From Pagrus major (taxonomy: Eukaryota > Chordata > Actinopteri > Spariformes > Sparidae), in contig NC_133230.1 of NCBI RefSeq assembly GCF_040436345.1, forward strand, positions 7,771,297-7,835,296: a DNA stretch of 64,000 nucleotides, in the 5' to 3' direction. The position numbers and the translations under genes were made by a program. Under the pieces are notes generated by a model. The model saw nothing but the letters and a program-made list of their open reading frames with translations. It had not been told where the DNA came from and made no database searches. Each line of letters starts with the position of its first letter. Position 1 is the stretch's first letter. Positions 1-55,219 of this stretch are shown one piece after another.

Positions 1-3000
1 CCTTTTCTGTTCGGTTCACTCGCCTCCAGAACAGTGGTGCTGCAGACGGAGCTGGAAGACGGAAGAAAGGGAAAGTATGAAAAATGCAACTTGTTCTCTG
101 GTTTTAGGACTTATTTCTGCAGCACTCTATAATTGGTGATCCTCTGAAATGTCTCAACAACTATAGGAGGAAATTTGTCACACACATTCATGTCTCTCTC
201 AGGATTAACTGTAATTCTCTAAAATTTCCTCGAGTGAGATCTTCTAATCAAAATTTCCATTTGTTCAGTATTTTGGTTTATGGCCAAATATCTGGCCTTC
301 CCATCAGCCTCAGCTGCACCTCGTGTTTATTGCTAATCAGGACATATTAGCATGCTTAGACACTAAACTAAGACTGTGTCTCGGTACAGCTTCACAGAAC
401 ATCACATGCTTCGGCGATAATCATGTAATCAATAAATCCCGTGTTCAAGCCAAGCCAGACACCCGTGTTGCAAGTCATCTACCCTCGCGTTCCAGTTATT
501 GAGTGATCACTCTGCTCAGCCTTCCTGGCAAAGCTTACGAGAGGGAACATGGAATGAAACTGTCGAAAAACTTAAGATTTAAAACGGGAAATTACGACTT
601 TACTCACACAAGGAGGGTCATAGGACTTTTCCTGTCTGGTGTCCATGTGGTTTACTGACTGGTCTTTGACTGTGTATACACGTAAACATCGTTTTAGGTC
701 ACTGAAAACGGACATTTTGGATACAGTTGTCGGTGTTAACATCTAGACGGGTCACATTTCCCTGCCTCATTCATAGGATTTTCTGTAACCAAGCAACCAG
801 CCACAGAGTAGAGAATCTGCTTCCTGTTTACACCGGCACGTGTTTGCCCAATGTATGTGAATGGCCATGTGATATGTGTTTTCAGGTGCGTTCGTATGGA
901 TGAGGATCATTCCTGGAACTGTGCTTAAACGCTCGTCTAGACGCAGATCGTTTTCATTGTAAAACCCTGTTTTCAAACACACAGTTGCATGTGTGGACCA
1001 GGCCTGAGCCAAAAACTGATGAATGGTGCTGCCTTTCCGCTTTCATCCTTTTATAGCATTATAAACAAAGAAAAGTGCACAAGAAAGCCTCAACAATTAT
1101 ATTGCTTCTTCAAGGACGATGACAAACATGAATAGTCCTATGACGGCTTGAGTCTCGTTGAGAATACCGAAGTTTTATCATCTTTTTGTTATCAATACTG
1201 CTATGAACCAGCACTGGCTTCACAGCTGTGATTAAGACTTTCATCAAACACAATACAAAGTTTCCTCTCACCGTCTTCTGCTGTCCTTCCCTGGCAGGCA
1301 TTGCTCCACGGGCTCCAGGGACTCTTGTGCGTGTCCTTGTAACTGTGACGAAGCCTGACGGTGTACAATGTGTCCGGTCTGAAGTTTCTTGGACAAGCCA
1401 GGAAGCTGAAGTTCCTCACACTCACATTTTCGACCTGAACATCAAACTGTAAGGGAAAGAGAAACAGGACAAAGTAAGGAGAGGATGAACTACACATTTT
1501 TATTCTTTACTAAAGGGCAACACTGTCTTTGAACGAAACCTGAGTTGGCGATTGTTGAGAGTGGAAAGACGAACCAAGACGGTTTTAGTGAGTCTTGCTT
1601 TTTTGTATCTGTCAGGTTTGAATGATGCGTGTTTTAAGATAATAAAATGACTGTTTATGCAAATGGCTTTGGTGAGAGTGATTTGGCAGCTGCGTCTGGT
1701 ATTAAGGTTTGTGTTTAGGCATGTTTGGGAATGGCTGACCTGGCCCTGCGATGTGAACGCAATTTGTGATTTCAGCGCTCCGGTTTTGACTTCATCGCTA
1801 TCCACAGTAAAGACAGCCGAGTCCCTGACCCAGGTTACTTCCAGACACCGAGGTCTCCCTCTGACTGGCTTCACACTTTTCAAAGTCACTGGAGGCAATA
1901 TCACTGAGAAGGACGGGGAGAGAAGAGTGAGACAGAAGCACCAGAGCAGCAATAAAGGATGCGAGTAGAAGAAGCCTCACCTTCAATCATACCAGACTGA
2001 CACCGACCGACTGAAGGGACGTCCTGGTTGTGACCGTGGTGTGCTGTGATGCTGATGCAAAAGTTAAACCTCACAGATGACTTGTTTATCATCGCCGTGC
2101 AGCTGGTGTTAGATGTTGTGCAGGAGAACAGAGTCGTTTTATTGGACCTGTGCATGTAAACAAAGAAACATACACACACACACACTTATATAAGAACAGC
2201 TTCAAACAGATACAAAACCACAAGCCCAAATAGAGGAATACTCACGCAAATGGATGCATGTGTATGTTTCAGATGCAGGTGCACATTTGCATGTCAACTC
2301 ACTCACATGCAACCTTGCCAACACAGACACAACCACATCACAGGGCTCCGGACACATAAATTGCCATCTCATCTTTTGATATTTTGAAATAACCAGACGG
2401 CAGCAAATTTTTTACAAAAAACAGATGGTGAGGTGGAAGTTGTGGGACTGTTAGCATGTCAGTTTATCAAACCCGCCATCAAAGCCTCACACGAATGTCT
2501 GAACATTCAAAACTGATTACAAACGCAAGATTTCCATACACGATGTAAAAGTGTTGGCACAAACACGCCAACATGCAAAAACACAACGGTTTCTTATTTT
2601 AACACAGGGAATTGGCTAATTCAGTTTGACTGGATCATTTTACGATGATAAACACACAAGATTGCAAATTGAAGAAAAGGTACAATGTTGGAAAGAAAAG
2701 TTAGCCTGACTGCATATTCTCTGGATCTCGAGATAAACTAACTTTTATCACAAGAGATTTTGAAAGAAGCCATCTTAAAGCAACATTATGTAGCAATCGG
2801 CCTCTCACTGAAGTTACATAGTGCAAAAACAAGTGATGGGGGGCAGAGTGGCTGAGACAGACACCATTCACCCTATTAAGGGTATGGTGCCACCAGGCAG
2901 TCAGTGGAAATGTGCCAGAATAACAACAAACATATCAAAAGTACATCTGAGACAATATCAGACCATCAGTCTATTTCCTGCTTACCAGCCGCTCAGCAGC

Positions 3001-4854
3001 TCGACAGAAAGTCTGAACTTCACACGATCTAGATTTTTCACGCAGTCTGCAAACACGTAAAATGGAAACTGTTTCTCAAGTTGAATTGTATTAAATGAAA
3101 ACTGTATGTCATCCTCTCTCTAGTGACTGTCCCCAACTTATCACAAATAATAACCGCTGCTGCATTCGTCACACAAACTCCGACATGATGATCGGTCGCA
3201 GAAATTTGAAACAAATTGAGGAAAGTCTTCGGGGACGGAACAAAATTCAAATGTTTTGCCGACAAATTTGCAATTTTAGGGAGCAAATGTTCTGCTAGCT
3301 GAATATCTAATGTTATTATTCAAAAGTTATTCACGTGAAAAATCAACAGATAAGGCCGGCACTATTCTGGATTTTTTGTTAAAGGGTAAGTTCACCCAAA
3401 AATGAAAAATTCTGATATTATCTTCTCAACCCCATGCTGCTGGGCGACGTTTTTCTCCTGAACAACATTGAAAAACAAAACATGAAATGGCTCCATAGAA
3501 AAACCTCACCTGACTTTCCATCGGCATGAGGGTGAGTGGATAATAACTGAATTTTCTTTAATGACTGCAAGTGTTGTCTGTGTAGCTGCATCTTGACTGA
3601 GCAGATGAAAGACCTGAAGCATTTTTCTCAAACTTGCATGGGTTCGAGCACGTCTTCTTACAAAACCGCAGGAATGTTTTATCTCACCGTGAAGGAATCC
3701 TCACGATTTTCAGAGTGTAGCTCCTCGCTTCGGGGTCGCCAGCCTCCCAGTAACAGGTGACGTTAGCTCGCATGTGGAACTCGCATCTTTCTAGCTGCGG
3801 GGGTCGGGGAACGGTCTTGGAGGTTGTCATGGAGAAGGCCTGAGGCAAGACTGAAGAGGAAGGAGAGAGGACGGCGTTAACGGCACAGGAGTTTGGAGTT
3901 AGGAAAACCTGAATGAATGAGTGCAGAAATGTTGACACCTGTAAACGCTTTCATACAGGACATGAGGGGTCATTGAATGATTTGATGAAAGAAGAGAGGT
4001 TTGTGTTGGTTTTTCCTTTAAATTGTCACCCATCTCTCGCTATGTACATGTTTTTAACTGATGGGAAGAAGATTTAAGGGGAAAAATAAGAGGAACGTGG
4101 GACAGATTTGCAGAAAGAAAACAAATGTTGCAGCTCCTCACATCCTTCCTGGCGAAGTTATTAAAACAGACCTTAGGAGAATTATATCTGAATCCAATCT
4201 TACCAACACAGTTTATCATGTCAAGTATTTACAAATGGCTGCAATTGCTGTTTAGCCTGAGGTCTTAAAAATAAGCTCATGCAAGACAGTACAAGATGTT
4301 TGAAGCATCCTGCCGTCATATTTACTCTGAGTGGCTTGAATGCCTCATTTGTAATTACTGTGTTGGCAGATTTATCAGTTGTTGGAAACCTTCCAGAAAG
4401 CTTGTTTACGTCTGTATTTTACTACCTGAGATATAACTTCAATTAACTTTAACTGTGCCTCTGTTCTTACTTGACATAAACATGCGTCCTGAGTGATCGA
4501 TCACAAGTGGACAGCTCGAAGTGCAGACGCAGCGAGAACGCATTTGAGATCTGATCACTCAGAACACGAGGTGGGCTGGGCCCGCTGAAGGACCGCCTAC
4601 TCAACTGACGTACCTCTGCTACACAAGAAGAACTCACAACAGCAGACAAAATGACTTACACACCGATTGTGCAAACTAGTCAGGTGACTTTCTCCTAATT
4701 ATTTCCTCCAATAGCTCTCAGACAAATGTCTGCATGTCATCACACTGGACCTATCTCAGTCAGTCTGCACAGGAGGAAAAAAGTAGACAATGTTACCCAG
4801 AATAAGTCCGGCCCCCAGCAGGCAGGTCCACACCACAGCCGGGCTTCGCTCCAT
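1..4854 (-). CDS. gp130/IL-12R-type class I cytokine receptor, 5' part (runs off left edge)
   Basis: Six coding exons can be read on the minus strand: 4854-4797, 3850-3688, 2147-1981, 1903-1740, 1446-1272 and 51-1 (continuing outside). All have AG/GT borders and matching phases. The first exon gives a signal peptide (MERSPAVVWTCLLGAG...). Domain 1 has the family cysteine pattern C-x9-C-Y-W (exon 2) and a second cysteine pair in exon 3. Domain 2 ends in WSPWS at about residues 228-232. The exon at the edge reads APSAAPLFWRRVN, which resembles the start of the third fibronectin domain of gp130 (PSKAPSFWYK). No N-terminal Ig domain is present, as in IL27RA and IL12RB1. Such receptors bind helical cytokines at the cell surface and signal through JAK/STAT. 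The exact orthologue (il27ra, il12rb-type or a gp130 duplicate) cannot be fixed without the missing 3' part. If the last intron is kept, the frame stops at 1201 and the product would resemble soluble EBI3. Confidence 0.72.
175..385 (-). repeat. Dispersed repeat, 'GCTAACATGCTAA / ggtttatggccaaat' family (inverted copy)
   Basis: The stretch contains attttggtttatggccaaat and attagcatgcttag. The reverse complement of these words recurs at about 48960-49240 (tttggccataaaccaaagt, gcatgctaacaattg). I recognise this as a very common, non-coding teleost interspersed repeat. It lies in the intron before the edge exon of the cytokine receptor. Confidence 0.55.
2160..2186. repeat. (CA)n microsatellite
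   Basis: A short run of alternating A and C (acacacacacacac) lies just upstream of receptor exon 3 in the intron. Confidence 0.7.
2774..2880. repeat. MITE-like fragment with 'ttaaagcaacattatgtagcaat' start
   Basis: The fragment begins with ttaaagcaacattatgtagc and contains the near-inverse word gttacatagtgcaa. The words resemble the AAAGGTGCACTATGTAG family found elsewhere in this window. It lies in the receptor intron and has no coding content. Confidence 0.4.
3378..3565. repeat. Short copy of 'AAAGGATAAGTTCACC' MITE family
   Basis: It begins ttaaagggtaagttcaccca and ends near catcggcatgagggtgagtggataataactgaattttc, which is the terminal part of the family. The longer copy is at 7775-8343. 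It lies in the intron between receptor exons 1 and 2. Confidence 0.6.
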
Positions 4855-9043: not shown

Positions 9044-11353
9044 CTAGTTTGAGCTACATTTGCGAGGCAGAGGCAGGCAGAGCTGTCGTATCCGAGGCGA
9101 GGGGCTGGCGGAACGGGCTGCCCGGCTGACTTCGTAGGGGTCGTATCCCTCGAACAGGGCCTTCCTCTCTTTGGGACTGGACAGCTCTAGAAGTCTCTGG
9201 CTGGCGATGTAGTTTCTCGCCGCTCTGGAGACGAGCCAGCACACTGAGCGCTCTCCTTCAAACTTGGGGTGGTCATGCTTAGGGGCTGCAAAAGACAGAT
9301 GCAATCAGGTCAACCAGCGAGCAAAACAATGCAAAATTGGATCAAGGACGCTGCACGATGTCAAGAAGAACCTACTTGCAAGCAGCTCGATGTGTGCCGA
9401 TGCTTTGCAGGGTATGTGGGTCATGGGCACAGGTTTAGATTTGTGGCCAGAGCCCTCCAGAACCAGCCTTCTTTTAGGTTGGGCGAGCTGGCAAATACGT
9501 GAAGTGGCGACTGCCGTCTGCGTGGCTCTGCTCAACTAGGATCACAAATCAGCTCATTAATGAACTTACATTACATACATACACACACACACGCATACAG
9601 ACACACAGAGGCACAACATAAGACATCATCTCCTCTGAATCAATCAAACAAATGAATATAAATGAACTGATCCGTGAGAAGTGAAGTTCATAAAGCTGGT
9701 ATACATCACACAACATTGTGCAAGTCGAGAACAATTTGATGGATTAGATGGTGACTTCTCACTTACAGTCTTTATCACAGCTAAGGTTTGAAAAGTTGAA
9801 AAGTTATTTATTTCCACATTAAAAGGAAAAAAAGTGATTTTCCTGAATTCGCATTAAAGTTTTACCTCCTGTATAGAATTAAATGTAAACAGGACATGTA
9901 TAAATACCAACTTAAAAACTAGAAAAACAACTGTGTGCTATCAACAAATGGGTGAAACCACAGGTGGCAAAGTGAAAAAACCCCCAGAACAAACCACTGC
10001 ACAAATCAAAAACAACCCAACCTTTAGTCCTTTAAGTTCGGCTGTCAGGCTTTCTAAATAGCTGCCACCCTGCCCTTACTAGCACAATTGTTTAGGCACA
10101 ATTGGAAACCTACAAGTTATCCCATGATCTGCCTGTAAAAAACAGTTACTCAGGAAATGATGCATGCGTTACTCACAGGGGCCAGCGGTGGGCGGTCCGG
10201 CTGCCAGCCAGCGACAGGGGCCCGAGGTCGAGCCAGACTGCACAGCCTGTTGGACGCGACGGCCCTGAGAGCACGTTCACTCACCTCCCATATGGGAGAA
10301 AGTCTGAGGAAGGAAAGGAAGAGGACAAATGAAAGCAGAAATGAAAGGAGACACAGATAAAACTGAGAGTTAGATTGGAGGGGGAGGTTAAAGAGGTTAC
10401 TAGTATTATAGAGGAAGATGAAGAAAGAGGAAAGAGGAAGGAAGGAAGTGGGTAGGGTGGCAGATAAGAGACACAAGTACAGAATAGTAAAATAGTCAGA
10501 AGGAGACTCTAGACATTTCTCACAGGTACCTTGATTTCCTGTCAACAACTTGAGGCCTCGCAAACACACAGAACTTGATGTGTTTGAATGTTTTTCAGTG
10601 AACTAATATGATATTGATAAATGTGTAACATACACACTACACAGCCTATTTTCACTTGATTAATCACTGAAAAGGTTGTTCTTAAAAAGGGCTCTTACTA
10701 TCTGTGATGCTCCGGAAATGTTTTGCAGACTATGAAACTTCACCCAAACCTTGAGGGTGAGCAGCTCATGAGTGAGTTTCCTTTTTTCGTTGAACTTAAC
10801 CTAATCTTTGATGAGGTTTCTTTTGTTTAATTGATTGACGACACTGTGACGTATCTATAAGAATGGATGGACAGAATGAACAAGTCCCAGAAGCGTCTGA
10901 AATAAAATAAAAAAGTCTTGGATCTCTCTGCCACAGAGGTAAAAAGAAATCACACATGAGCAAAAGCAGAACTTGTTGTATTTACGTGACTTGAGAGTAG
11001 AACTTTTTACTCCTGCTCAGCTCCAACCAGCGAGGGGTTAACTCTGCAAAGAAAAACAATCATGCACATCATCACAAAATCATGGCTTGTGATTAAAAGA
11101 CAAAAGCGGCGAGTGACAGACGTACCAGCCTTGGTGGTGGATCCAGTCCTCTCTGGTTGAAGCTCATCCAGCCAGTAAACAGAACGACTGGGACATTTAA
11201 AAAAAATAAAAAATAAAAACCCAACAGATCTCAGAAGATAAAGAGGAAGACATGGAGACAAAGAGAGAAAGAAGGGTTCAGTCAGGCCTACCGGTCTGGG
11301 TATCTGAGTCTGTCGGGTTTGGGTTGAGCGAGCCTCTGCGTCCGAGTTGCCAT
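9044..11353 (-). CDS. theg: Testis-type THEG repeat protein (spermatid microtubule-associated protein 2)
   Basis: Six exons on the minus strand: 11353-11292, 11187-11126, 11043-10986, 10303-10177, 9535-9376 and 9285-9044. They keep frame throughout and code for 236 residues. The start is MATRTQRLAQPKPDRLRYPD. The protein is a chain of short THEG repeats, each with a core like R-x-x-x-L-A/S-x-P-K: RTQRLAQPK, WLELSRSKK, NRLCSLARPR, SRICQLAQPKRR and QRLLELSSPKERK. Order and spacing match mammalian THEG, including SVYWLDE (human SVYWTER), LSPIWEV (human TTPVWPI) and the late EGYD motif. Human THEG lies on 19p13.3 and is expressed in spermatids. The fish protein is shorter than human because it lacks the acidic N-terminal region. 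Its neighbours are the receptor and shd, all on the same strand. A duplicate or THEGL-like assignment is possible but less likely. Confidence 0.85.
10695..10800. repeat. Degenerate end fragment of the AAAGGATAAGTTCACC MITE family
   Basis: Words such as ccggaaatgttttgcagac, tatgaaacttcaccc and gagggtgagcag match, in the same order, the right-hand part of the family copy at 3378-3565 and 7775-8343. It sits in the theg intron between exons 3 and 4. Confidence 0.45.
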
Positions 11354-12604
11354 GGAAACAGTTTAAAGCTGATGGGGGAGCAGAAGCATATTGATGGCGA
11401 ATTACAACGTCACCCACTTTCGTCAGCATACGTATAAATAATGTTCTGATAAACACATCCAGGGACAAATTTAAAACTTAATCACTTGATTCATTTAAAG
11501 TGTGTGAATAATCATTAGTTGCAGGCTCGTTTCGCTGCACTCTGGAGGTGAATTGAGAGGAGTGAGGTACCCCTTGTTGACCTGCCATCCCCCTTCTTGA
11601 TCACCTCGTAGTAGATAGTGTGCGAGGACAGAGGGATTGTTTAGTTGAAGTAGCAGATGCATTTGTAATTGTGCCTTTTTCTCTCAGTCCCACCGCTCTG
11701 CATGTTTTGTCTTGGATCTAATATATTCAGAGTTTGACTGGTACTGGATTTTTGGGAAGAAATTCAAACTCAGAATTTTAATATTTGCAATATTAATGAG
11801 GTAATAATACAACGAAGTGAATAAACAAGCTGTTCTCAGAAGAAAATTAGGTTCCCAGCACAGTGTTTAAAGGCAGAAAGGTGGCAGGGTCCGCCAGATC
11901 TAAACAAATTGTGTTGTCCTTTAAGGTCAGTTTGTTTATTCAGTCATGAAAACAAAGACAGCTTGTTATCAAGTTTGTTTAGCATAAAAAAATCAGTCAG
12001 TGAAGATCTTTCTCCTCCGATTAAAATGTCTTCCCCCGAAACTACAAAGTGCACCTGTAAGCTACGCTAAAGTTTAATCATACTGCACCTGTAAGTTGCT
12101 CCTTTCCTTCTCCGGCCGTGACACCGACACCTGCTGGTTGCTAGGGGATCAGGTGACGCTGGTGGGGTACAGTACACTGAGGATCGTTTATGCGCAGGGC
12201 GAGTCTAACTCTGCCTTCCTGTACAGTCAGGTAGCCTACATCTAAATTAATTACATAACAGCTGTAGGTGAGTGATGACGAATATCCACTTCTGTGTCAG
12301 TTGCAGTGTTGTATTGTGTTTCAGAAAACATGTATAGACTTGTACTCAAAGTGGTTCCTGGAAAGAGGAACAGATTGATCTCCTTCCAACTTTAATTTTA
12401 TTCCTCCCAGACAGTGACAAACTAAGATACAGATTGTAGTTCTGGGAAGAAATGTATCCTGGTACAGTAAACCCTCCTTAGGTAATTTATCACAAACTGC
12501 AGTCTGAATAAAGAGACTTTAATCTTAAACTTCGCCACATCTGTTTATATGATATGTATTATGAACACTGATATAGAAAGCAGAATTAAACAATGCAACG
12601 CAGA
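11354..12604. other. theg upstream region and theg-shd spacer
   Basis: No coding exon was found. The theg promoter should lie close upstream of 11353, since the first coding exon is preceded by moderately CpG-containing DNA to about 11530. The rest contains the repeat at 11745-12060. Confidence 0.4.
11745..12060 (-). repeat. MITE-like element, 'AAAGGTGCACTATGTAGTTTTGG' family, inverted copy
   Basis: It contains ggtggcagggtccgccagat, gtcctttaaggtcagtttgt and gaaactacaaagtgcacctg. Read on the minus strand these match the plus-strand copies at 27588-27853 and 38141-38488. It has no coding capacity. Confidence 0.65.
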
Positions 12605-13569: not shown

Positions 13570-18606
<5,037 letters not shown>

Positions 18607-27587: not shown

Positions 27588-27853
27588 TTAAAGGAGCAGT
27601 CTGTAGTTTTCAGGATGACATTTTAATCAGAAGAGAAAGATCTTTGGGCCTAAACAAACTAAATAAACAAACGCTCTTTGTTTTCATGACTGAATAAACA
27701 GAATAAACAAACTGACCTTGAAGGACAACACAGTTTCAAACTGTTTTACTTTGTTTATATGTGGCGGACCCTGCCACCTTTGGTGTATTCAGTTAAGGAA
27801 AAAATATTCTGAATTTGAATTTCTTCTCCAAAACTACATAGTGCTCCTTTAAT
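27588..27853 (+). repeat. MITE-like element, AAAGGTGCACTATGTAGTTTTGG family
   Basis: The left end is ttaaaggagcagtctgtag and the right end is aaactacatagtgctccttt, so the ends are inverted repeats. The interior holds tatgtggcggaccctgccac, shared word-for-word with the copy at 38141-38488. No open reading frame is present. Confidence 0.75.
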
Positions 27854-31500: not shown

Positions 31501-34500
31501 ATCAGAAAATAGTCAAATTTAAGATGCTGTTGCCACCAAATGTTTGGTATTTCTGCTACTCAAATGTGAGTAAACACTGTGAATGTTAATTACTTTTATG
31601 CTAATTTAGCTAAAAAAAACCTTTTTCCTCTCTCTACTTTTTATTATTTGATACTGTTCTTTCAGTTTGAGTTATGAGGGATGAAATAATTAATCTCTCC
31701 GTCTGTCTGGTCCTGGCAGGTGTCGGCTCTGCTGTCCAGGGATTCGGCTCATAAGCTGCTGATCTTGGCCGGCCAGAGTGTGGAGGACAGTGGAGACCTG
31801 CTGTTTCACAGAGGACTGTTCTCACCACACCACCTGAAAAAAATACTGACAGAGCAGGTACAACAGCGTCTCTCTCTGAATTTTTATCTCTTTGTCTGTA
31901 AATATATTGATATTACTGTTCAAATCTCTTGTCTGACTGCTGAAAAACTGCTCTGTTTTTAGTTCATAGATCAAGAGAGCTCCTCCTCCAAACTCAGTCT
32001 GACTCTAAGTTGTCCCAACATCAGCCAGTGGAGGAATACTCTCGTGGGAAACCAGCCTCTGCAGGGTCCTTTCACGCTGCTCATCAATCCCCCAGAGGTG
32101 CTGCCTGCCATGGAGGCCCTGGGGGAATTCACCTCCCTCATCTCTGGCACCCTCTCCCCTCCATCTCCCTTCGACCTCCTGCCTCCTCCCACCACGGTGG
32201 GTTTTCTCAAGCTGTCCCGCCCCTGCTGCTACGTGTTCCCTGCCGGCCGCGGCGACTGTGCCTTTTTTGCCATTAACGGGTTCACGGTGCTGGTGGACGG
32301 CGGCTCGGACTCTCAGGCTTGTTTCTGGAAGCTGGTCCGCCACCTCGACCGAGTTGATGCAGTTTTGTTAACGCATGTTGGGACAGAGAACCTCCCCGGG
32401 GTCAATGTCTTCCTGGAGAGGAAGGTGGCTGAGTTGGAGCTGAGCTCTGATGTCAAAGGTAAGAGGTCGAGTCAGTTTTATTCATGCTGTACAGCCCAAA
32501 ATCAAAAGTTTGCCTCAGAGGGCTTTACAATCTGCTCAGCATACATCACTTTCTATAATTAGACCCTTGATTTCGATAAGGCATAACTCCCCTTAAAAAA
32601 CCAACAGGGGAAAACCCTTAGAAAGAGCAACAGAGGAGGGATTCCCGGTGATGTTTCTGATTCATCATGATAAAAGGAGATCTGTCAGGAGATATCTCTT
32701 TAGTCCACTCCTCTTTATGTGTTTCTCTGTGTCTCTATCTCCTTTTATCTGAACAGATGACTCCTCTAAGAGGCTTATCTCCCCAGAGCTTGGAGTTGTT
32801 TTCTTTAACGCCCCCAGCAGGTTGCAGCTGGAAGATCAGCCCTGTGAGTGATGCATTCAAACCTACAGTAGTACAGTACGTCTCTGCAATCTGCGGATAT
32901 GTTGAGTAAATGTTGGCAGTTTACATTAATGCAAACCATATATGTTTACATTGAAACTTTACATTTCTTTATGTTGCAACTTTACGGTTCAGTTTTAAAT
33001 GTATCTTGTGACAACACTGTGCTTATGGTCTGGTTAGGTTTAGGCACAAAAAACACTTGGTTAGGGTTAGGAAAACATCATGTTTTGGTTTAAAATACCT
33101 GTTTTTTGTTACTACAAACATGATTGTAAATGTCCAGACTTCCCATGAAACATGGTTTCATGAACAGTTGGGTTTCTAATGTGAATGATTGCTATCAAGT
33201 AAAGTTATCATTCTTCTTCTCAGGTGCGGACAGTGTACTGAAGAGCACACAGCAGGGGGCTCTAACCCTAACCTTGTTAAAGAAGTTAGAAATCAGACCA
33301 CAGCCATTGTTTCGACCACAAGGGATCCCCATTGAGCCACTGACCCTGTTCCAGAAGATGGGAGTGGGACAGCTGGATTTATACATCCTCAACCCCGGCA
33401 AAAACAGTCAAGAGTACCAGACATTCATGCAAAACTGGCCTGATGCCGTGTCATCAGCATCCAAATCCCAAACTCTCCCTCTCACCGCGCTGGCCTCAGT
33501 GTCTGCGCTGCTTGTGTGGCACCCAGCGTGTCCCCAGGAGAAGGTGGTCAGGGTGCTGTTCCCCGGTGTCACCCCACAGGCAAAGCTGCTGCAGGGGCTG
33601 GAGAAGCTGAAGGGTCTGGCCTTCCTCCAGAAACCTGCTGTGACGACCGGGGACCTGGAGAGGCTGGGAGAGGACAAAACGCCCAAGAGGACGGAGAGCC
33701 AGGACAGTGGTAAGTCTCAAGGGAAGGAGTCAACGGTGAAACACGGAAAAGATCGGGGAGGTAAAGAAGAGGGGAAAGGAAAACTGTTAAACGGAGTCGC
33801 TGCAAGAGATGCTGATAAAACCAGAATCAAAGAGACAGGTGTCAAGCACAAAGCAGCATCTTCAGAGAAGAATACTTCAAAGAAAGGAGGAGGTAAGGAT
33901 GGGAAGAAGGAGGATAAGCCTGGCAATAAAGAGGAGAACGGTGTTACGAGGCATGATCAGGGGAAAAGGGATGCTCTCACTCCAAAACCAAAGAATGACA
34001 ATAAAACTAAACTCAAAAAGGAAGCAAAAAATGACTCCAAAACAGGGGGGAAGAAAACAAAAAAAACATCAGGAAAGGAGGCAAATAATGGCAAGAAGGT
34101 GCATGAAAACGCTGAATTACCAGATAACAACTCAACAAAACCTGATGCTGGGACTGTGTTATCAGAGCCAGAGAGACTCGATGCAGAGCAAAAACCAGAG
34201 AAACAGTCTGAAGAGAACCCCTGTGGCTCCAAAATGTCTACCCCTGAGGACATGACAGCTGATTTTCTAAAGCTCAGGGAGGAAACTGCAGCACAGGTGG
34301 AAACAGCAGATAAAGGAGAGCAGAAAAGCAGTGAGTCCGGAAATGAAAAAAGCCTTGGAGACCTGAGCAAAGCGGCTGACACACTTGAGGAAGAAGCCGG
34401 AGATAATGCAGGGATAATGGGAGGAGAGAGTGGTGATAATGGAGCGCGAGACAAGGCTTGGACTGGAGAGAAAGCGCCAGAAGACCAGCCTGGAAATGCT

Positions 34501-36777
34501 TGTAAACCAGCAAAGGTTGTAGGATTCCCATCTCCCTTGAATAAGGCGCCAAAGAATGAGCCCTCAGACCAGCTCGACTTAACCCCGACTGAATACACTC
34601 TCCTGGACGGGGCTTTGAGAAGCAGCCCTCCCTCCAGATCCTCTCCAGAGAACCAGGTGCCAGTCAGCCCTGACGAGGAGACGGTAGAGCCCGCATCCCC
34701 TGATTCACGGCCCAACAGCGCAGGCCACACTCCTTACTGTCTGTCCCCAGATGATGTGTGGTGCAACAGGGCCACTCTCAACAGGTTACAGGCCCAGATG
34801 GGAAACGAAGAGTCAGCTAATGTCAACGATTCATCCAAGCAGAGTGAGGGACAATTAAACCAGCCCAAAACCACTCCAGAGAGCCAAGCAAACCCCAGAG
34901 AGAAGCACCTAAGTTTCCTTTCTTTGGGTTCATTTAAAGACGGCTCTTCAGACCCCTCTCCGTCTCTCACTACCACCACTACTACACACTCAATGCCGGC
35001 AGAGGTGAGCTCACCTCAGTCCACAGAGGTAGATGAGTCACTGTCCATGTCCTTAGAGCAGGGACCAACCTCTGTGAGCCAAAGAGATGGGGATGACAGC
35101 CTTCATCACTCAAGCTCCAATGGAGGCCATTTTGTTGGGATGTCTTTACCAATGAAGAAGCCACCAAGATCTGTAGGGCAGGGTTTCGAGATGGGGCGGC
35201 CTCCGGCTCCTAACACACTTCATTTTGAGGCATCAGCTCACGATGTGGATCTATGTCTGGTGTCTCCCTGCGAGTTCAAGCATTTCAAACAACCTGACTC
35301 TGGCTCAGGTGCGAGCGAGTCCCCCAGAGGAGCTTTTACTCCACATCATCACGGCAACAACAACAACAACCCCAAAGACACATCGCCCAGCGAGTCAAAT
35401 GCCCCCGCCTGCACTGAGGACTGCCCGTCCACCACCGCAGAGGGAGTTCTGGACTCAGATGAGGATGAGTCATGTAGTGAGCCGTCTAACTCGCCCCATG
35501 ACCTCCACACCAGCCGGGCTCTGCCCCAGGACCCTCTTCCTGCCCCTCTCAGGGACAGTCCACCCCTGCCCCCTCATCCTGACACCTCCATGCCCGTTCC
35601 TCAGTCTGACTCTGATGCTCACGGGAAGAGGGCAAAAGCCACTGGCACACGAGGCAAAAAATCGCCAGCGGTGAGTTTGTCTTATTAGCATTGACGAAAA
35701 GGATGTTTATGTAATTTGGCGCATTAGTTCATGTGTAGCATTTAAGCTAAATCGTTTGGTTAAAGGTCCTATTTGTAAGAAAAGTTGTTTTTTGATTATC
35801 ATTCCCAGCACATCAAAAACTGATGCTTTGGGTTTTCCAACTCGTCAAATACTGTGTTTATTGGTAAAGTCCCTCTCCAAAAACCACCTTCAACTAAGAA
35901 GATACTTTCTGTAGATTCATAAAAATCAATTTTGCTTTTTGTGACCAGGTTACTGAGGCCTCCCAAAGATCAGGCTCAGGGAAAAGCAGGACAGGGAACC
36001 AAAGTGGAGTCCTGAAGGGGAACGCCTCGTCTACTCGAACGCCTTCCTCCAGCCCCCGTTCGGCACCAGCAAAATCCTCACCCAATCCAGGTATGAGGCG
36101 TATAATGTAAATGATATAGAGAGCTGTAAATCGTTTTGTACTTTTCAAACTAAAGTGTGTCCACAGTTGGTGTCCGCTTAGCTGCTCTCTCTCCTGTCAC
36201 AGGCTCTAAGTCTACCTCTGCAGGAGAAGTCAGCCTATATGTTGACCTGGCCTATATTCCCTATGGAGGCTCCTCTTCAACAGTCAACGTGGACTTCTTC
36301 AGATGCGTTCGCTCCTCTTGTTACATCGTCAGTGGCGACAGTCCAGAGAGAGAAGAGCTGTTGAGGCATACGCTAGACGCATTACTGGATAGCAAGAAAT
36401 CCTGGCCTGAGACTATGCAGGTAGAAACACACAACTAGAATGGCAACCCTTTTTTGTCATCTTAAGCATGCAGCAAAACAATAGATCCATGTGAATCTGT
36501 AAGGTAAACTGGATCACCTATCCATGTTTCTCTGCAGCTACTGAAAACACATTTTAAAAGTAACCAATGCAGATCATTTTTTCTCCCCTTTTCATTCCCT
36601 TATCCTTGTCCTTTCTTTCAGGTGACAGTGATCCCCACCTATGAGTCGGTGGCGATGCAGGAGTGGTACCAGCAGACCCTGGACAGACAGAAGGAGCTGG
36701 GCATTACCGTCCTGGGCTCTAACAGCACTGTCGCCATGCAGGACGAGACCTTTCCCGCCTGCAAGATAGAGTTTTGA
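28573..36777 (+). CDS. map1s: Microtubule-associated protein 1S (MAP1 family)
   Basis: Ten exons: 28573-28735, 30079-30174, 31232-31314, 31720-31857, 31963-32458, 32757-32843, 33224-35670, 35949-36090, 36203-36420 and 36622-36777. All phases match, giving 1341 residues (human MAP1S 1059). The N-terminal MAP1 module includes GDIERGIRSWDVDLKSCNLN, FIDQESSSSKLSLTLSCP and a metallo-lactamase-like fold (NGFTVLVDGGSDSQACFWKL, then DRVDAVLLTHVG). The single giant exon 7 (2.4 kb) encodes a Lys/Glu-rich low-complexity middle, then the MAP1 motif VDLCLVSPCEFKHFK. The last exons form the light-chain domain (VYVDLAYIPYG-like, RSSCYIVSGD) and end MQDETFPACKIEF, almost the same as MAP1B. MAP1 proteins are cut into heavy and light chains that bind and stabilise microtubules. 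MAP1S also links to autophagy. Assignment to MAP1S rather than MAP1A/B rests on size and synteny. Confidence 0.9.
29580..29720. repeat. MITE-like fragment 'ttaaagggcagcaccaccacttttacacat'
   Basis: The start (ccttaaagggcagcaccacc) resembles a teleost repeat with TTAAAGGGCAACTCCACC ends that I recall. The other end was not found. It lies in map1s intron 1. Confidence 0.35.
29837..29921. repeat. Long inverted repeat (hairpin) in map1s intron 1
   Basis: The left arm 29837-29856 (gtgtctctgggttcgttagg) and right arm 29902-29921 (cctaacgagcccagagacac) pair over 20 positions with one G-T wobble. A second inner stem, ggtgg/gcggac with gtccgccacc (about 29855-29885), sits inside the loop. Nothing in the arms codes for a known RNA. 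Confidence 0.7.
30289..30310. repeat. (GGAA)n simple repeat
   Basis: About five tandem GGAA units lie in map1s intron 2. Confidence 0.7.
32466..32680 (-). repeat. LINE 3' tail, inverted, in map1s intron 5
   Basis: On the plus strand it reads tttattcatgctgtacagcc, then gcctcagagggctttacaat and gaggagggattcccgg. The reverse complement matches the plus-strand tail at 43400-43675 (ggatccctcctct, gtaaagcccattgaggc, gggctgtatgaataaaattg). Confidence 0.65.
33010..33115. repeat. 'ttaggtttaggcac / ggttagggttagg' dispersed repeat
   Basis: It contains ggttaggtttaggcac and cttggttagggttagg. Related words on the opposite strand occur at 52040-52085, 56270-56345 and 57950-58020. It appears to be a common teleost dispersed repeat that has telomere-like words. 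It lies just before the giant exon of map1s. Confidence 0.45.
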
Positions 36778-38140
36778 GGCAGACTCTTGGGATGCAGCGG
36801 CAGAGGATGGATGGTGATTATGAGCTGAAGAATGGAAATATGTGTGACCGTCAGAGAAAGTTAAAAGGAAATTTTCTGGCCCTTTTCTGCATGAACGCAT
36901 CCGAGTGGGTAATGACGGGACGTTCACCCCATCCCCTCTTGATTAATCTCTTCTTTGTGGGCTCCTTTTGCACCAGAAAGCCCTTATTTCTCTTGATCCA
37001 AGGAGAACACGTTCCCGTGGGGAGTTTTGCATGAATTTCTGTGACCCATGACCCTGTGCGAAGCAGGAGAGGTGATGACACTGGCTGCAAGAGAAGCACG
37101 TCGGGCTGCAAATGTGCATCCACATGAAAGCTGATGTTGTAGATTAGTCAATGTAGTTAGCATACATGCGGTTAAAGGCGCTATATGTGGGCTTGTTTTC
37201 TCAACACATTCAGCACTGAGGTGTGATAGTAGGCTGTGCGATGTTTAAAGACCGAATTCGCTGCTTTTAATACAACATTTATTAAGTTAAATACATTTGA
37301 TTTAGCAAATTAAACTACTGAAAATACTTGTTGGTTTATAAAAAACACTGAGCACATTTTATTTCTTTTATTTACTAAAATTATATTTGTCTGATCAGCA
37401 CGGAAGATGACTAAATTGTAAAAAAAAAAATAAAAAAAATAACATTTTACCTTTAATGACATCACAGTGTGCGGTCAGGTGTTTGTTGTGAGCGCCGAGT
37501 GCAGACATGAGATAAGCTGTGTCGTGTGTCGTAACTGCTTTAAGAAGTATCGCTCCACCGTGGCTTCACTGCTGACCTGACGTGACGTATCTAACGCGAG
37601 TGATAATCGCCCGCTGGATCTGAGATTAATGGATCTGCAAAGACAAATCTGTCGGCAGGGATTAGAGCACCAGATTAAAATGAATAGCATTACAGCAATC
37701 ATCTTATTAAGTATCGCAATTAATTGTAATCCATTACGAGTGCTTAAAATCATACTAATCAGGAATCAGACAGCAACATAGATGTTTAAAAAAAGTGATG
37801 ACATGTACTTTGATTGTTAATATGATCATGAGCTTATTGTGGACACATATTTTGCACAGCATTAATTCATGGTGTGGTCACAGTGGGTGGTAACGACAGC
37901 TTTCCACGTTGTAGTTTGTACATACGAATTAATTAAAAATCAGATTCTATTTATATTTAGAACAAAGTAATCTTGAAACTACTGGATTGCTGTACTAATA
38001 TCAGTAATGCTTTAGTTTTTTGGGTCCATAATTTGTTCATGATTTACTAGAAAGTTTTCTGGACTGATGTATATCATTGACATATATTACGGATAGATTT
38101 TCCAATAATAAATGACTAATAAATTAATATTTACTTTAGT

Positions 38141-38488
38141 TTAAAGGTGCACTATGTAGTTTTGAGGAAGAAATTTTAATCAGAGGAGAAAGAGAAAGAT
38201 CTTTATTGGCCCTAAACAAACTTTATTTGTTTTGACGACTGAATAAACAAACTGACCTTAAAGGACGACACAATTTCATACTGTTTTTCTTTGTTTATAT
38301 GTGGCGGACCCTGCCACCTCTTTACCTTCAAACAGCATTCTAGGAACCTTGTTTTCCTCTGAGAACAGCTTGTTTATTCACTTATGGAAAAATGTCCATG
38401 AATGAATTGTTTTATAACCTCATTGATATTGTAAAGATTAAAATCTGGGTTTGAATTTCTTCTCCAAAACTACACAGTGCCCTTCTAA
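38141..38488 (+). repeat. MITE-like element, AAAGGTGCACTATGTAGTTTTGG family, longest copy
   Basis: The left end is ttaaaggtgcactatgtag and the right end is ccaaaactacacagtgcc, so the termini are inverted. The interior shares aaacaaactgaccttaaagg and tatgtggcggaccctgccac with the other copies (11745, 27588 and 44404). It does not code. Confidence 0.78.
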
Positions 38489-38554
38489 ATCGTGGTCCAA
38501 GGGCCAACAGCAAACACCTGCTATGTTAAAATGTAAAATGGGGTCCCAGGAGCC

Positions 38555-43146: not shown

Positions 43147-44150
43147 AAGACAGATATCAAACTCAAAATAATGAGTCGGTTGATCAGATATATTTAATTA
43201 ATGCATGTTAACAGGTTTATCCATTTCTTTGTAGTTGTCTGTAATAGTCAGCACGTTTACATTTTCTCCATCATCAGATTGGGTGAGAACAATTTGATCA
43301 ACAGCTCCAAAAGTACTAATTAATGGACCTCGAGATGCGATTTATATTATAATTCGTATCAGATATTCTGTCAATGCAACTTGTAAACTGTGATTTTGTT
43401 GTTCTTTTCTGTACATGCGACATCTATTGCATGTCTCTGTCCTGGGAGAGGGATCCCTCCTCTGGCTCTTCCTGAGGTTTCTCCCATCTTCTTTCTGTTT
43501 TTTCCCGGTTAAAAGGGTTTTTTCCAACAACATGGCAAGTTTTTCCCCACTTGAATCGAGGGTCTAAGGACAGAGGATGTTGTTCACTGTACAGATTGTA
43601 AAGCCCATTGAGGCAATGTGATTGTGATTTTGGGCTGTATGAATAAAATTGATTTGATTTGATTTAGACTCCTTAAACCCTCAGAAACAATTGAAGATTC
43701 AGCATCTGCAGTTTCAATTTCAAGACATTTTTTTTTGCCTAAATATGGAAGTGCAATCGACTAACTCTTGAAACTCAAGACACTTTAGATGTGTTTTTTC
43801 AAACTAAAAGTCAAAGATATGTTACTGGCATACACATAATCTTAAAAATAATATATCAAAAGTAAAGTAGTTGATTGGCCTGGAGTGATGTTAGCTACTA
43901 AATAAACCTCGAAATGAGATTGTTTTGCTAACGTTGAGTTTCAGACATCTTGAAACGTTCACAAACTAAATAGGTTTATACATTTTGCTTCAAGTTGGGT
44001 TTATTTACTCTTAAAAACCACTTCAGTTGTTGTATTTTTGGTCACTTTTCTTTTTTAGCCATGAAGAGGTTTTAAGTTGATGCACGTGTCCAGAGATTTC
44101 ACTTTTTCTGCACGTTTTGCTTCTCTAATAAAGATATTGTGGGGCTTTAC
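43147..44150 (+). other. Probable 3' UTR and downstream region of ifi44-like gene
   Basis: The stop codon is followed by AT-rich DNA and a LINE tail (43395-43675). A clean AATAAA occurs at 44127-44132, followed by a GT-rich stretch. The 3' UTR may therefore include the LINE tail, or end earlier at the AATAAA inside it. Confidence 0.4.
43395..43675 (+). repeat. LINE 3' tail with (GATTT)n end
   Basis: It contains tgtcctgggagagggatccc, cgagggtctaaggacagagg, gtaaagcccattgaggcaat and gggctgtatgaataaaattg, then (GATTT)n. This is the familiar 3' end of a teleost non-LTR element. The 5' part is missing. Confidence 0.7.
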
Positions 44151-44234: not shown

Positions 44235-44400
44235 GTTTGGTGGTTGGTTTGTCAGCAGGATTACACGAAAACTACTGGACAGATTTCCATGAAACTCGGA
44301 TGGAGGATGGGTCTCGGCTCAGGGAATAATAGATGGATCTTGATGAAAAAAAGATCACCCGTATTTAGGTGGCTGGTATCTATGAGGTCCTAGATCCCAG
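44235..44400 (+). repeat. Dispersed repeat 'caggattacacgaaaactactgga'
   Basis: The words gattacacgaaaactactgg and cagatttccatgaaactcgg match a repeat that I recognise from many fish genomes. The class is not known to me. Confidence 0.45.
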
Positions 44401-44403
44401 AGC

Positions 44404-44531
44404 TTAAAGGAGCACCGTGCAGTTTTGGTGGCAGGGTCTGGCAGATACAAACAAAGTAAAACAGGATGAAATCATGTTGTCCTTTAAGATCAGTTTGTTT
44501 ATTCCCCATATCTACATAGTGCACCTTTAAA
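44404..44531 (+). repeat. Short copy of AAAGGTGCACTATGTAGTTTTGG MITE family
   Basis: The left end is ttaaaggagcaccgtgcag and the right end is ctacatagtgcacctttaa. The inside contains ggtggcagggtctggcagat and tcctttaagatcagtttgt, shared with the copy at 11745-12060. Confidence 0.7.
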
Positions 44532-48929: not shown

Positions 48930-48954
48930 TCAATGGCGTTATTTTCAGACACAA

Positions 48955-49880: not shown

Positions 49881-49882
<2 letters not shown>

Positions 49883-49914
<32 letters not shown>
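49883..49914. repeat. (GT)n microsatellite
   Basis: Sixteen or so uninterrupted GT units. Confidence 0.9.
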
Positions 49915-49918
<4 letters not shown>

Positions 49919-50182
49919 ATATGTATGCATGCTTGCAAATCTTTTGCAGTTGTAACTCTCTTTTACGTAAGCTGCATCTTGCAAATGAATTACAAGGAAC
50001 TGCGTTTCCGTTTCCATGAAGTAGCTATTTCCTCAATCTTTCCTCAAACGGTTCAGAGAAAGGTCGGAGAAAAGTCGATCTGAGATTAGTCATACTGAGT
50101 TATTTCCTACCTGTCACTGCAGGTTGCACTCTAAACATCTCTTCAGATATCTCTACAGATTAGGCAAAGGAATTTAATCAAC

Positions 50183-50830: not shown

Positions 50831-51144
50831 GGGTCTCTAAGGCTTAAAACGTGTGGTGGAAATAAACTGCTAAAACAATGTGGCTGAGTCAGACACTAAA
50901 CAGAAAAAGAAATGATTGCAGGAAGAGAATTTGTCATCATTGTGACGGTTTTGGGGGGTTACGATTGGTCATCACATCAAAAAATAGCTTCCCACACTTC
51001 AACTGAACAACTTTAGCTTGTGACAGAATCCTTTTCCACCGCTCTGACCTCAGACTGATGCAATAGAGCGAGCGGAGGCCATACGTGCTGCTCTGACTCA
51101 CACGGCGTCACATGACCTCTCCACCAGTCAGACTCACCCTGACC

Positions 51145-51400
51145 TGGAATTGCTGGTCTTCAGTACAGTAACATTACTATGTGACACTCTGCACAGCACT
51201 GGAGGCACTGTGTGTCCATACACGCTGTCTCTGACATATACACACTCACTCACACATACACACTCACACACACAAATGCGTGCACCTCTATTTTCTCTCC
51301 TCTGCCCACCGCTCTGCCAAATCATCCTTTTTAGCTACCAAACACGAGCAACCCCCACACACATGCACACACACGCACGCCCTCAGCCTTCTCTGTGGCC
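51145..51400. repeat. CA-rich simple-sequence cluster
   Basis: Several short CA and CACT runs occur at about 51236-51275 and 51353-51380. No coding frame is supported. Confidence 0.55.
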
Positions 51401-51597
51401 TTTCTCCAGCTCCTGCTCGCTCTTGTACTTTGGGAACGGCCTGCTCTCACTTGTTTGGAACAAAGGCAAATGAGTGACGAAGCTGGGCTTTGTATCAGGA
51501 ACCGTCGCCTACATTGAACAGCGATGTTAATCAGCAATTTGTCCCTGATTTGAATTGTAAATTTGTGTTTTGTTTTTTTATGTAAGAAATTGTTTTC

Positions 51598-52160
51598 ACA
51601 TTTTAGGAAACGTGCTTATTCGCTCTCTCGCTGAGAGTTAGATGAAAAAAGTGGATTTCTCACTCGTGTCTGCGCCGTAAATATGAAGCTAAAGACAGCA
51701 GTCGGTTAGCTTAGCTTAGCATAAAGACTGTAAACGGGGAGACATTTAAACTTAGCCTGGCTCTGTCTTTAAAAAAAAATGAGTCTACCAACAGCTTCTC
51801 TCATTGAAATGTAAATAGCTGCAAACACTGGTTGGTGTTACTGTGGCTAGCTAGCAAACGTCAGCCAACCGCTAGCTAACATAAAGGGTTACCTGTAATT
51901 CAATGCAGTAAAAATGCTACGAAAAATTACTTATTGGAGGTTAAGAGTTTTTTTTTTTTAACTTACTAATGTACAGTAGTGAAGTTAGGTCACATACATA
52001 ATGTAATGCAGGTAACATACAAATCAGAATTAGGATTTTAACCCAAACCGTGTTGTTTCCTAAACCTAACCAAACAGCGACCATAGGGTGAAGGTCTGGT
52101 ACGTCTGAGACTGTTGTTGGGATTTTGCTAGCCATTTCCAGTCATTTTTGCTACGCTAAG
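51598..52160. repeat. Second, degraded copy of the AAAGGAATAGTTTGACA MITE
   Basis: It shares aacgtgcttattcgctctct, gagagttagatg, aatatgaagctaaagacagc, cggttagcttagcttagc and gctacgctaagctaact with the family. The outermost bases are decayed. It contains an internal stretch with aacctaacc-type words (52060-52075). Confidence 0.6.
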
Positions 52161-54780
52161 CTAACTGGCTGCAGATTGATTTAGGGTACAGACACAAAAA
52201 CTTCAGAAAATAACAAGACAAAATCACTTTTTAACGTGGTATTTTTGTAAGTTGTCCCCAGCAGACTGTCTGTTTTTCAAGCTGTGTGCACACTCAAGAC
52301 TAAAGAAAACTAGTCATCCTGACTCCCAGAAGTCACTTTGTGTCACAGGTGGCTCATATTGACCTAGTGATTAGGGAACAGAAAGAGCAGTGGGCTCAGC
52401 TCCCCCAACAGTCCATCAGCAGCAATAAGTCCTGTCCAAATGGCTCCACCCTGCTCTGTCACTGTATGTCTCTCCTGACAAAAGCCTCAACAAAATAATG
52501 CTCGTATGTAAATACGCAGCAAAGCACCTTTCTTTCAGCAGTAACCGCCGAAAGCAGCTCTCAGTGCCGAGCCTTACCACTCCTTCAACTTTTGACCATC
52601 GAACCTAAAAGAAACAACTGCAAAGAGCGTGGGGTGTGCGTTGTGTGCATGTGTGCGTTGTCCTAGTTGCCTGTCGCCCACCAAAACCAACGAAAAACGT
52701 GTGGGCTGCTCTGGTGTTAAAGGATAGATCAGGAGGTTGGTTTGTGCCACTGAAATGAGGTCCGATGTTGATTCATCCTCTAGCAGGATATGATCCTAAA
52801 CCTAACAGGGCTTTTTGTGTCTATCTGACATTATTCTAATATATCCTCATCAGGCGTTTTGTATTTGTATCTGTGGTTGAAACCATCCTCCACTATCTCA
52901 GGCCTCTTAAACCTGAATGGAAATGATAATCAATGAAGACAGACATGATCCTGACTGACAGAACGGAATAAGTAGTACTAAAAAAATCCAACATCCACAG
53001 AGGGGGAGTCTGTGTTTAGATTTTGTATCTTACAAACACTGTACAGGGTAATACTCAACTGACCAGGTTCCATGGACTCCATAGAAAGAAGAAACTCAGA
53101 AAATAAACCCAAAACAGCTACTCTTCAACTTATCACTTCTGCACATGTCTGAAAGAAAGTTTATACACTTAGTTTGTTTCTCTTGACTTCATTTTTTTTA
53201 TCACTTCGTCTTCAGTTTTTACAATCAAGTTTGGTTTGTCAGAGAGGAGGAGGAGCATCGTGGAGGAGAGGTGGGAAACCGAGAGGGGGGGCTGCTGGCT
53301 CTGATCCAGTCCCCGACCAGTTTATAAGCTCACGTTAAAGCGAGCTCTTCTTACTGGGGAGACGGGAAAACTTTAAAGACGGGTAAAGCCAGGTCACATC
53401 TATGATAATCTGATTTAAATCCAGAATTTAAACAAAGTGTATCCCTCTTCTCTACTGCAGAGGCAAACAAAACAAACGCCTCCGTCTTTTTTCTTCACTT
53501 CGCTTCTGATTTAAAGAATCAAACATGACTGGAGAAGGCGGGAAAAGGGCGCTTCACTTTTTGTTTTCTCCTCCAGCCTTGAGGTCCTTGCAAGACTGAA
53601 TCTCAGTCAGTCTACGATCTCGCCCTCTCTCAGGGTAAAGCACAGGGAGGCTTGATGTACAGTAGAAACCTTTGTTTAAGATCCTAGCAGGTATCTGGTT
53701 AGGTGTGACCCCCTGGCTTACAACCAGGCCCCCCTGTCGTTTCATTAGCATTTAATGCCAGACAGGAAGAGAAACCTGATCAGCCAGGGGCGACACCTAC
53801 GTCAAAGCTAAACAATTGAAAAAAAAAGTACAGTTTTATCTTATCTGTTAAGTAATGCTTCAACAAAATATCAAAACATACATTGAGTTCACAAACAAGT
53901 ACTTCTTAAGAAAAATGCAGTAAACGTCCAGGGTTAATAGCTTGAGTTCTGTGTAGAGCAGATCACTATGTTACCCTCATAGGTGCAGATCTGAGGTCAG
54001 CCTAGACATCGATTTTCAACCAACGGCAGCCGCGGTGAAGCTGCAGTGGAATCGGTGACGGCAGATCGGCATCTAGAGACGACTTTCTGTACATGTTGGC
54101 ACAGCTGGAGGTTTGGCCAAAGGCTGCAGACGGCCATAGTGAGGCCACAGGCAGAGAAGGTCTGTTCATACAGGTTTGGGTGGGAACATGCTATAGCCCG
54201 ATAAAAGGCAAAGGCTTCAGCCGCTCGCTCCAAAACGACCTGCCATGATTTAGCACTGGCAGGCTTGAGGGCAAAGCTCCCAGACCTTTTTTTAAAACAG
54301 CCTTAAAAAATAAAAAGCATTTTACTGAGCTTTTAACGGGACACCAGCTCGTGTTTGGCACGGCTGGCAGGAGCGCCTACTGTCCTTTTTCTGTTGCCCA
54401 CATGCATCCTCCCACTCCTTGCCTATGGCACTGCTGTCCATCCTTTACCCAACCCCCTTATTTCATGACAAAAGAAGGAGAGAAAATCCCAGTTTCCTAC
54501 TGATTATTAATGTCCAAATCCCTTTTTTTCAAGTTAAACTGACACTTGTAGTTAATTTACCAGCATACATGAATATTACCAAAGCACCTTGGATCATACT
54601 CAGTGATATACTGATCTCAGCCACTGTGAGCACAAGAAAACCTGCCCCCTAGCTGTGGCTCAGGGGTATGGCGCTTTTCCAGAGTGGCTATTTTGGGTGT
54701 GTGTCTGTGTTTGTGTGTCCTAGATGGGCTGCATCAAGTGTGTGTTTGCATGTCTCAGGAAGGATCAATTGAAGTATTGA
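52161..54780. other. No gene seen
   Basis: The stretch contains no exon or repeat that I can name. The most plausible role is part of the gng7 3' UTR or downstream DNA. Confidence 0.35.
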
Positions 54781-54850
54781 GCTTGAGAGTGTGCGTGTGT
54801 GCATGTGTGTTTGTGTGTGTGCGTGTGTGTGCGTATGTGTGTGTGTGAGG
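54780..54850. repeat. (TG)n/(CA)n tract directly after the gng7 stop
   Basis: An interrupted TG repeat (gtgtgcgtgtgtgcatgtgtg and similar) begins about 25 bases past the stop codon in gene sense, so the gng7 3' UTR opens with a CA-rich run. Confidence 0.8.
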
Positions 54851-54870
54851 GCAGGAGGAATGTAGTGTGG

Positions 54871-55219
54871 CTATAGGATGATGCAGGGTTTCTTGTCCTT
54901 GAAAGGGTTTTCGGAGGTGGGAACCCCAACCAGCAGAGGGTCGCTACGAGCGTGCTGCTCACAGTAACTCATCAGGTCTGCTGCTGCTTTAGACACCTAG
55001 AGGGGGAGACGAGAGGGGGAGAAGGTGGCAGATTCAAGAGGATGGTGGAAAAAGAAGAAAGGGGGACAAAGAGCGGTCAGAGGTGGATGGTAATCACGCT
55101 GACACGTACACGAACATGGCAGTAAAGCGTCCTCCTACCTTAATGCGTTCGATCCCTGCCTCGATCCTCAGCTGTTCCACCAGTTTCCTGGCCTGGGCGA
55201 TATTATTAGTGGTAGACAT
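54871..55219 (-). CDS. gng7: G protein subunit gamma 7
   Basis: Two coding exons on the minus strand, 55219-55139 and 54996-54871, encode 68 residues, exactly the length of human GNG7. The start [20 protein letters not shown] is almost identical to human, followed by [20 protein letters not shown], then [16 protein letters not shown]. The protein ends with the CAAX box CIIL, which directs geranylgeranylation. G-gamma proteins pair with G-beta at the plasma membrane; gamma 7 works with G-olf/adenylyl cyclase signalling in mammalian striatum. Both exons keep the standard gamma-gene splice position after IERIK. The acceptor at 55234 lies 14 bases before the ATG, so at least one leader exon lies upstream. 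gng12 is the closest relative, but the near-identity and the gadd45b neighbour favour gng7. Confidence 0.95.

Follow-up and report, generated by a model that had tools for sequence, protein, structure and literature searches.

A compact nine-gene block in Pagrus major as a probable duplicated copy of an anciently linked gene neighbourhood

A 64,000-nucleotide stretch of the Pagrus major genome (contig NC_133230.1, here C16, C16:7771297-7835296; "the window" below is this whole stretch) carries nine genes within about 55 kb, in the order class I cytokine receptor (-), theg (-), shd (-), yju2 (-), CART (+), map1s (+), an ifi44-like gene (+), gadd45 (+) and gng7 (-) (Table 1). An earlier note on this DNA had listed these genes in this order, and all of them are found in our gene models, which were assembled manually from GT/AG splice sites and open reading frames, with domain evidence from Pfam and comparison with structural chains from PDB sequences; the end point given for the block is also right, with the gng7 start codon beginning at 55219. 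Pfam backs eight of the nine genes, while the class I receptor rests on PDB matches instead. Start-to-stop models of the coding exons are complete for shd, yju2, CART, map1s, the ifi44-like gene, gadd45 and gng7. The searched genome comprises 785,883,843 bases in 25 contigs, and 50 kb on each side of the window was also examined.

Table 1. Genes, receptor exons and map1s introns in the window
Feature	Position	Strand	Evidence or remark
gp130-family class I cytokine receptor, 5' part	1..4854	-	hand model, PDB sequences
receptor exons	signal exon 4797-4854; 3688-3850; 1981-2147; 1740-1903; 1272-1446; 1-51 of edge-crossing exon	-	
theg-like, four 3' coding exons	9044..11043	-	Pfam THEG 8.2e-44; 5' exons not resolved
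shd, 7 coding exons, 418 amino acids, SH2 at C-terminus	13570..18606	-	Pfam SH2 1.6e-16; paralogs
yju2, 8 coding exons, 344 amino acids	21436..24073	-	Pfam Saf4_Yju2 3.5e-118
CART, 3 coding exons, 110 amino acids	26188..26860	+	Pfam CART 1.9e-33
map1s, 10 coding exons, 1341 amino acids	28573..36777	+	Pfam MAP1B MBL 1.2e-108
map1s intron A	32459..32756	+	absent from four of four paralogs; repeat remnant
map1s intron B	32844..33223	+	absent from four of four paralogs; interspersed repeat
map1s intron C	35671..35948	+	absent from C11 copy (weak alignment, poorly conserved stretch; C11 sole comparison)
ifi44-like (TLDc plus GTPase), 7 coding exons, 467 amino acids	40731..43146	+	Pfam TLD 7.6e-13, MMR_HSR1 1.5e-7
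gadd45 (read as gadd45b), 4 coding exons, 153 amino acids	45138..46622	+	Pfam L7Ae/Gadd45 1e-6
gng7 coding exons, 68 amino acids, tail-to-tail with gadd45	54871..55219	-	Pfam G-gamma 7.3e-23

Two pairs of neighbours within this block recur on other chromosomes of the same fish. GADD45 occupies at least seven loci (C5, two on C11, two on C12, C16 and C21), and the 24 GNG matches listed resolve, when counted by hand, into at least 14 loci at E-values up to 0.1, a count that omits matches above 0.1 on C3 and C15, the C15 one being taken for a first exon, as well as repeat exons of one gene. The two families lie tail-to-tail on C16 (8.2 kb apart), on C21 (about 7.7 kb) and at 4.98 Mb on C11 (about 5 kb), the spacings again being taken by hand, and the GNG genes of the C21 and C11 pairs have the two best E-values after the window's own among the matches listed (72 and 63% identity). 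Two of the 13 non-window GNG loci fall within 10 kb of any of the 6 non-window GADD45 loci, against an expectation of 0.002 pairs. We tentatively read the C21 and C11 (4.98 Mb) pairs as copies of GADD45A-GNG12. The window gene is read as gadd45b from its location, because among PDB sequences the gamma and alpha chains score alike (about 146 bits) and the matches returned included no beta chain. The two C12 loci are head-to-head GADD45 genes about 6 kb apart, at C12:5822234 (-) and C12:5828645 (+); their translated matches are identical over query residues 45-153, intron included, and their second exons differ, a pattern that may reflect local duplication with gene conversion or else an assembly effect.

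The second recurring pair is CART-MAP1. CART exon 3 has at least seven matches (two on C4, two on C5, and C8, C15 and C16), and there are at least five MAP1 genes (C4, C8, C11, C12 and C16). Members of the two families are neighbours on C16, where map1s starts 1.7 kb past CART, and on C4, where two CART genes lie at 87 and 116 kb from a MAP1 MBL exon. An SHD-like gene is also present on C4 at 32.55-32.57 Mb, some 3.7-3.8 Mb from CART and MAP1, and the closest relatives of the window SHD among the matches listed are on C11 and C4, a count that omits weaker SH2 matches on C16 (16.19 Mb), C17, C12, C11 (15.88 Mb) and C19. Genes, paralogs and repeated pairs are seen directly in this genome. The linkage check proposed in the earlier note, run here within one genome, finds GADD45-GNG on C16, C21 and C11 and CART-MAP1 on C16 and C4; with the SHD-like gene on C4, several families are repeated jointly, as would be expected of a paralogon from the two early vertebrate duplications (2R). 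Since GADD45-GNG, CART-MAP1 and SHD linkage recur on other chromosomes, these pieces predate the duplications from which the copies arose.

The naming of the CART genes follows published motifs (PMC4436185). The window CART has six cysteines, a KK site and no KR site, and ends in KCL; with a CART domain, three coding exons, six cysteines and neither a KCI nor an RCY ending it has the features of CART2, and we read it as CART2, an assignment made from its sequence by exclusion and from its location. Of the other genes, a C4 CART with the KCI ending fits CART4, while the C15 CART, with RCY at its end, fits CART5 (PMC4436185). Against simple naming of this kind, CART genes have also been sorted into four clades under other names (PMC13364575).

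The surroundings of the window point toward human chromosome 19. On the left flank lie a G-alpha gene, a TLE gene and a weak PAP2 match (19 bits, under the Pfam cut-off) that we read as a lipid-phosphatase gene, and on the right a Ras-family gene that we read as DIRAS, then an exon of TB2/DP1 (REEP-like) type and one encoding an immunoglobulin C1-set domain; another two open frames gave no match. The C1-set exon, at window coordinate 105606-105965 (-), about 42 kb right of the window (Pfam 1.9e-13), is possibly a light-chain constant domain. GNA11/GNA15, TLE2/TLE5, PLPP2, DIRAS1 and REEP6 all lie on human 19p13.3, and the window would therefore sit in a 19p13.3-like region. Six of the nine window genes have their human orthologs on 19p13 as well, namely THEG, GADD45B, GNG7, YJU2 and SHD, which the earlier note placed on 19p13.3, plus MAP1S, and the window order mixes 19p13.3 and 19p13.11 genes. 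The earlier note had proposed that each human chromosome kept a different subset of the block; this holds only in part, as most of the block, six of nine genes, went to one human arm. CART2 has not been identified in mammals (PMC4436185). GADD45B has been placed at 19p13.3 and GADD45A at 1p31.3 (PMC10850240). CART2 would be the real addition of the fish block relative to the human 19p13 set.

A likely sister of the window is found on C11, which carries MAP1 at 0.41 Mb, GADD45 at 0.81 Mb, DIRAS at 0.89 Mb and SHD at 14.4 Mb, a set spread over 14 Mb. Identity to the window genes is 62-81% for SHD and 85-98% for DIRAS, the latter comparison omitting Ras-family matches of 33-51% on other contigs, and C11 gives the best non-window match for SHD, DIRAS and GADD45 among the matches listed. 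The window MAP1 gene, read as map1s, has a short heavy chain (1341 amino acids) and is closest to the C11 copy of the four others (58.5% vs. 50.9-53.4%), and an unrooted MAP1 tree of the copies in this genome sets C16 and C11 against C4, C8 and C12. C11 thus holds the closest paralogs within the same genome, as would be expected for a block copied by the teleost duplication (3R), and is likely the 3R sister of the window, a status that the SHD and DIRAS identities favour more clearly than MAP1 does. No GNG or CART adjoins the C11 sister genes among the matches listed. Given the spread of the C11 genes over 14 Mb, the 55-kb packing would be either specific to the window copy or lost in C11. This same chromosome carries both the window's presumed sister region (0.4-0.9 Mb) and the presumed GADD45A-GNG12 pair (4.98 Mb), about 4 Mb apart, and therefore two paralogous copies would now lie on one chromosome.

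Taken together, the block is very probably one copy, made by 2R and the teleost duplication, of an anciently linked neighbourhood that matches human 19p13, mainly 19p13.3, and that keeps CART2. The neighbourhood would have been linked before the two early vertebrate duplications, and 2R followed by the teleost duplication would then have made the copies. Inside the block two small units are genuinely old, tail-to-tail GADD45-GNG with DIRAS beyond it, and CART-MAP1, and paralogous units of both lie on other chromosomes of the same fish; the exact 55-kb order would have come from later loss and shuffling, with CART2 kept here and lost in mammals. The human correspondence of the block we infer. 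The idea of ancient linkage in the earlier note thus survives for GADD45-GNG and CART-MAP1, which recur elsewhere in the genome, and for SHD, whose relative shares C4, but not for the whole block as the pre-duplication state. An unduplicated pre-2R block would be single-copy, with its families united only here, whereas paralogs of all five tested families (CART, MAP1, GADD45, GNG and SHD) lie on other chromosomes and the window has its likely sister on C11, so the reading of the block as the ancestral pre-duplication linkage falls. Nor can "nearly complete in 55 kb" describe an ancestral state when on C11 these families are spread from 0.4 to 14.4 Mb.

Several observations weigh against this interpretation, and others limit the evidence for it. 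MAP1-bearing C11 and C12 have no CART on the chromosome, and CART-bearing C5 (two genes) and C15 have no MAP1, in each case among the matches listed, and on C8 CART and MAP1 are 18 Mb apart. A GNG was not found in the 20 kb searched downstream of the C11 0.81-Mb GADD45, and the C5 and C12 GADD45 genes have no GNG within megabases among the 24 matches listed. The MAP1 tree is unrooted, and the C11 MAP1 is as like the C12 (60.0%) and C8 (58.3%) copies as the window copy (58.5%). With C16 left out, five chromosomes (C4, C5, C8, C11 and C12) carry two or more of CART, MAP1 and GADD45 (P ~0.002), a value that assumes 24 chromosomes where the assembly has 25 contigs, and that is only indicative because the independence it presumes does not hold for 3R copies. 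The genome searches also score best candidates only, making the CART, MAP1, GADD45 and GNG counts lower bounds, and we infer the 2R and 3R dating of the copies from this one genome.

It is possible, though we regard it as somewhat doubtful, that CART-MAP1 and GADD45-GNG were joined by a rearrangement in the fish lineage and that only the pairs are ancient. No chromosome besides C16 has CART-MAP1 beside GADD45-GNG among the matches listed, as such a rearrangement would predict; however, MAP1 and GADD45 lie 0.4 Mb apart on C11 too, and there, just as on C16, DIRAS follows beyond GADD45; their linkage therefore predates the C11/C16 split, probably 3R. This alternative overlaps with the duplicated-copy explanation, under which the packing could be of any age. 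We think it unlikely that the core CART-MAP1-GADD45-GNG order in 30 kb survives from local gene order before 2R, and not just from chromosome content, with MAP1S later separated from GADD45B on the line leading to humans. That the whole block compactly keeps the actual pre-2R gene order, modern paralogons being thinned versions of it, is quite improbable: GADD45-GNG distance and orientation are kept in three copies, CART and MAP1 are neighbours in two and the C11 MAP1 lies 0.4 Mb from GADD45, but SHD and GADD45 are separated by 13.6 Mb on C11, and SHD and MAP1 by 3.8 Mb on C4, the mixture of human 19p13.3 and 19p13.11 genes speaks against it, and none of the other regions examined has the full order. 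Chance clustering of unrelated families is scarcely credible, for although nine genes in 55 kb would need no special cause in a compact fish genome and the linkage test covered five of the nine window genes, the two further GADD45-GNG pairs against 0.002 expected refute it for those two families.

The paralogon behind the duplicated-copy reading is already known in print. CART genes with MAP1A/B/S alongside are proposed to have multiplied by local duplication and 2R (PMC4436185), with seven CART genes in tilapia comparable to the at least seven matches here, whereas SHD and YJU2 are not in the main text of that paper. GADD45 and DIRAS are among the eight families of a fourfold paralogon described in human and spotted gar and traced to proto-chromosome A (PMC3502363); the GADD45B-DIRAS1 copy of this Kissr/GADD45/DIRAS tetra-paralogon corresponds to the window plus its right flank, but its eight families are without GNG, CART, MAP1 and SHD (PMC3502363). 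Work on the TNFAIP8 family shows that human 5 (~50-130 Mb) shares paralogy with regions of chromosomes 1, 15 and 19, and that human 19 (0-10 Mb) corresponds to zebrafish 2 and 22 (PMC5489176); this 1/5/15/19 paralogon is defined by other marker genes, and zebrafish 2 and 22 are also the CART2a and CART2b chromosomes in Table 1 of PMC4436185. Relaxin genes have been placed on vertebrate ancestral chromosome A (PMC3310001; PMC2805637), the same letter as here (PMC3310001), with RLN3 and INSL3 ~3.8 Mb apart on human 19 and unlinked in teleosts, but that linkage concerns other genes, without CART, MAP1 or GADD45 in the parts covered (PMC3310001; PMC2805637). JAK1, JAK2 and JAK3 on human 1, 9 and 19 are counted as 2R duplicates, in a study whose main text, unlike our set, is without GADD45, GNG and MAP1 (PMC2391169). 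Neither GNG nor SHD is named as a paralogon marker in the parts covered of five of these sources (PMC4436185; PMC3502363; PMC5489176; PMC3310001; PMC2391169), and a literature search for the gene combination found, with the terms used, no publication naming it, which is not proof of its absence from print.

The map1s gene of the block has introns of its own. Introns A and B interrupt the part coding for the MBL domain; at these places the four remaining MAP1 genes of the genome continue as a single open frame. Between them is a conserved 87-base exon and both are phase 1, so that frame damage is disfavoured. Intron A holds the remains of a repeat (74% over 104 bases) that recurs at 43554-43652, and the repeat in intron B has nearby copies at 77-81%. 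From these sequence comparisons, the simplest reading would be that A and B, and perhaps C, were gained on the C16 branch after its split from the C11 copy, which makes them candidates for a gain later than the teleost duplication. A single loss in the common ancestor of the other four copies is possible and is compatible with the unrooted MAP1 tree, but would need C16 to branch first. The repeats could have entered introns A and B later, which weighs against repeat-associated gain. In compact fish genomes, new introns have been described from other genes (PMC3151243). If a gain is true, map1s would be a usable vertebrate case of repeat-associated spliceosomal intron gain, and its introns are a possible test case for intron origin in compact fish genomes.

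At the left end of the block, the receptor (842 amino acids, - strand) runs from 4854 past the window edge to -5299, 5.3 kb outside. The fragment in the window has a single Pfam match (0.067), under that profile's cut-off. With the N-terminal fragment the best PDB match is IL-31RA (8e-12), and with the full-length protein it is gp130 (4e-51), followed by LIFR, OSMR and IL-12RB2; because of these matches the predicted protein is assigned to the gp130-family class I receptors. The name IL12RB2 is too narrow, as gp130, LIFR and OSMR chains outscore IL-12RB2. Rfam at gathering scores and ARAGORN gave no matches over the window. Copies of a short interspersed repeat were noted by eye at ~11800-12070, 27590-27850, 38140-38490 and 44400-44530, with shared stretches at their ends, and a tRNA-derived short repeat is suspected, also by eye, at ~62860-63020 (-), with ARAGORN finding no tRNA gene in the window.

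The wider lesson is that sister copies need to be looked for before a tight cluster of this kind is taken for an unduplicated ancestor. The block is a clean worked case in which GADD45-GNG and CART-MAP1 repeats are visible in one fish genome, with distance and orientation kept for GADD45-GNG. The repeated pairs back the published proto-chromosome A paralogon and suggest that GNG and SHD-like genes may serve as further markers of it.
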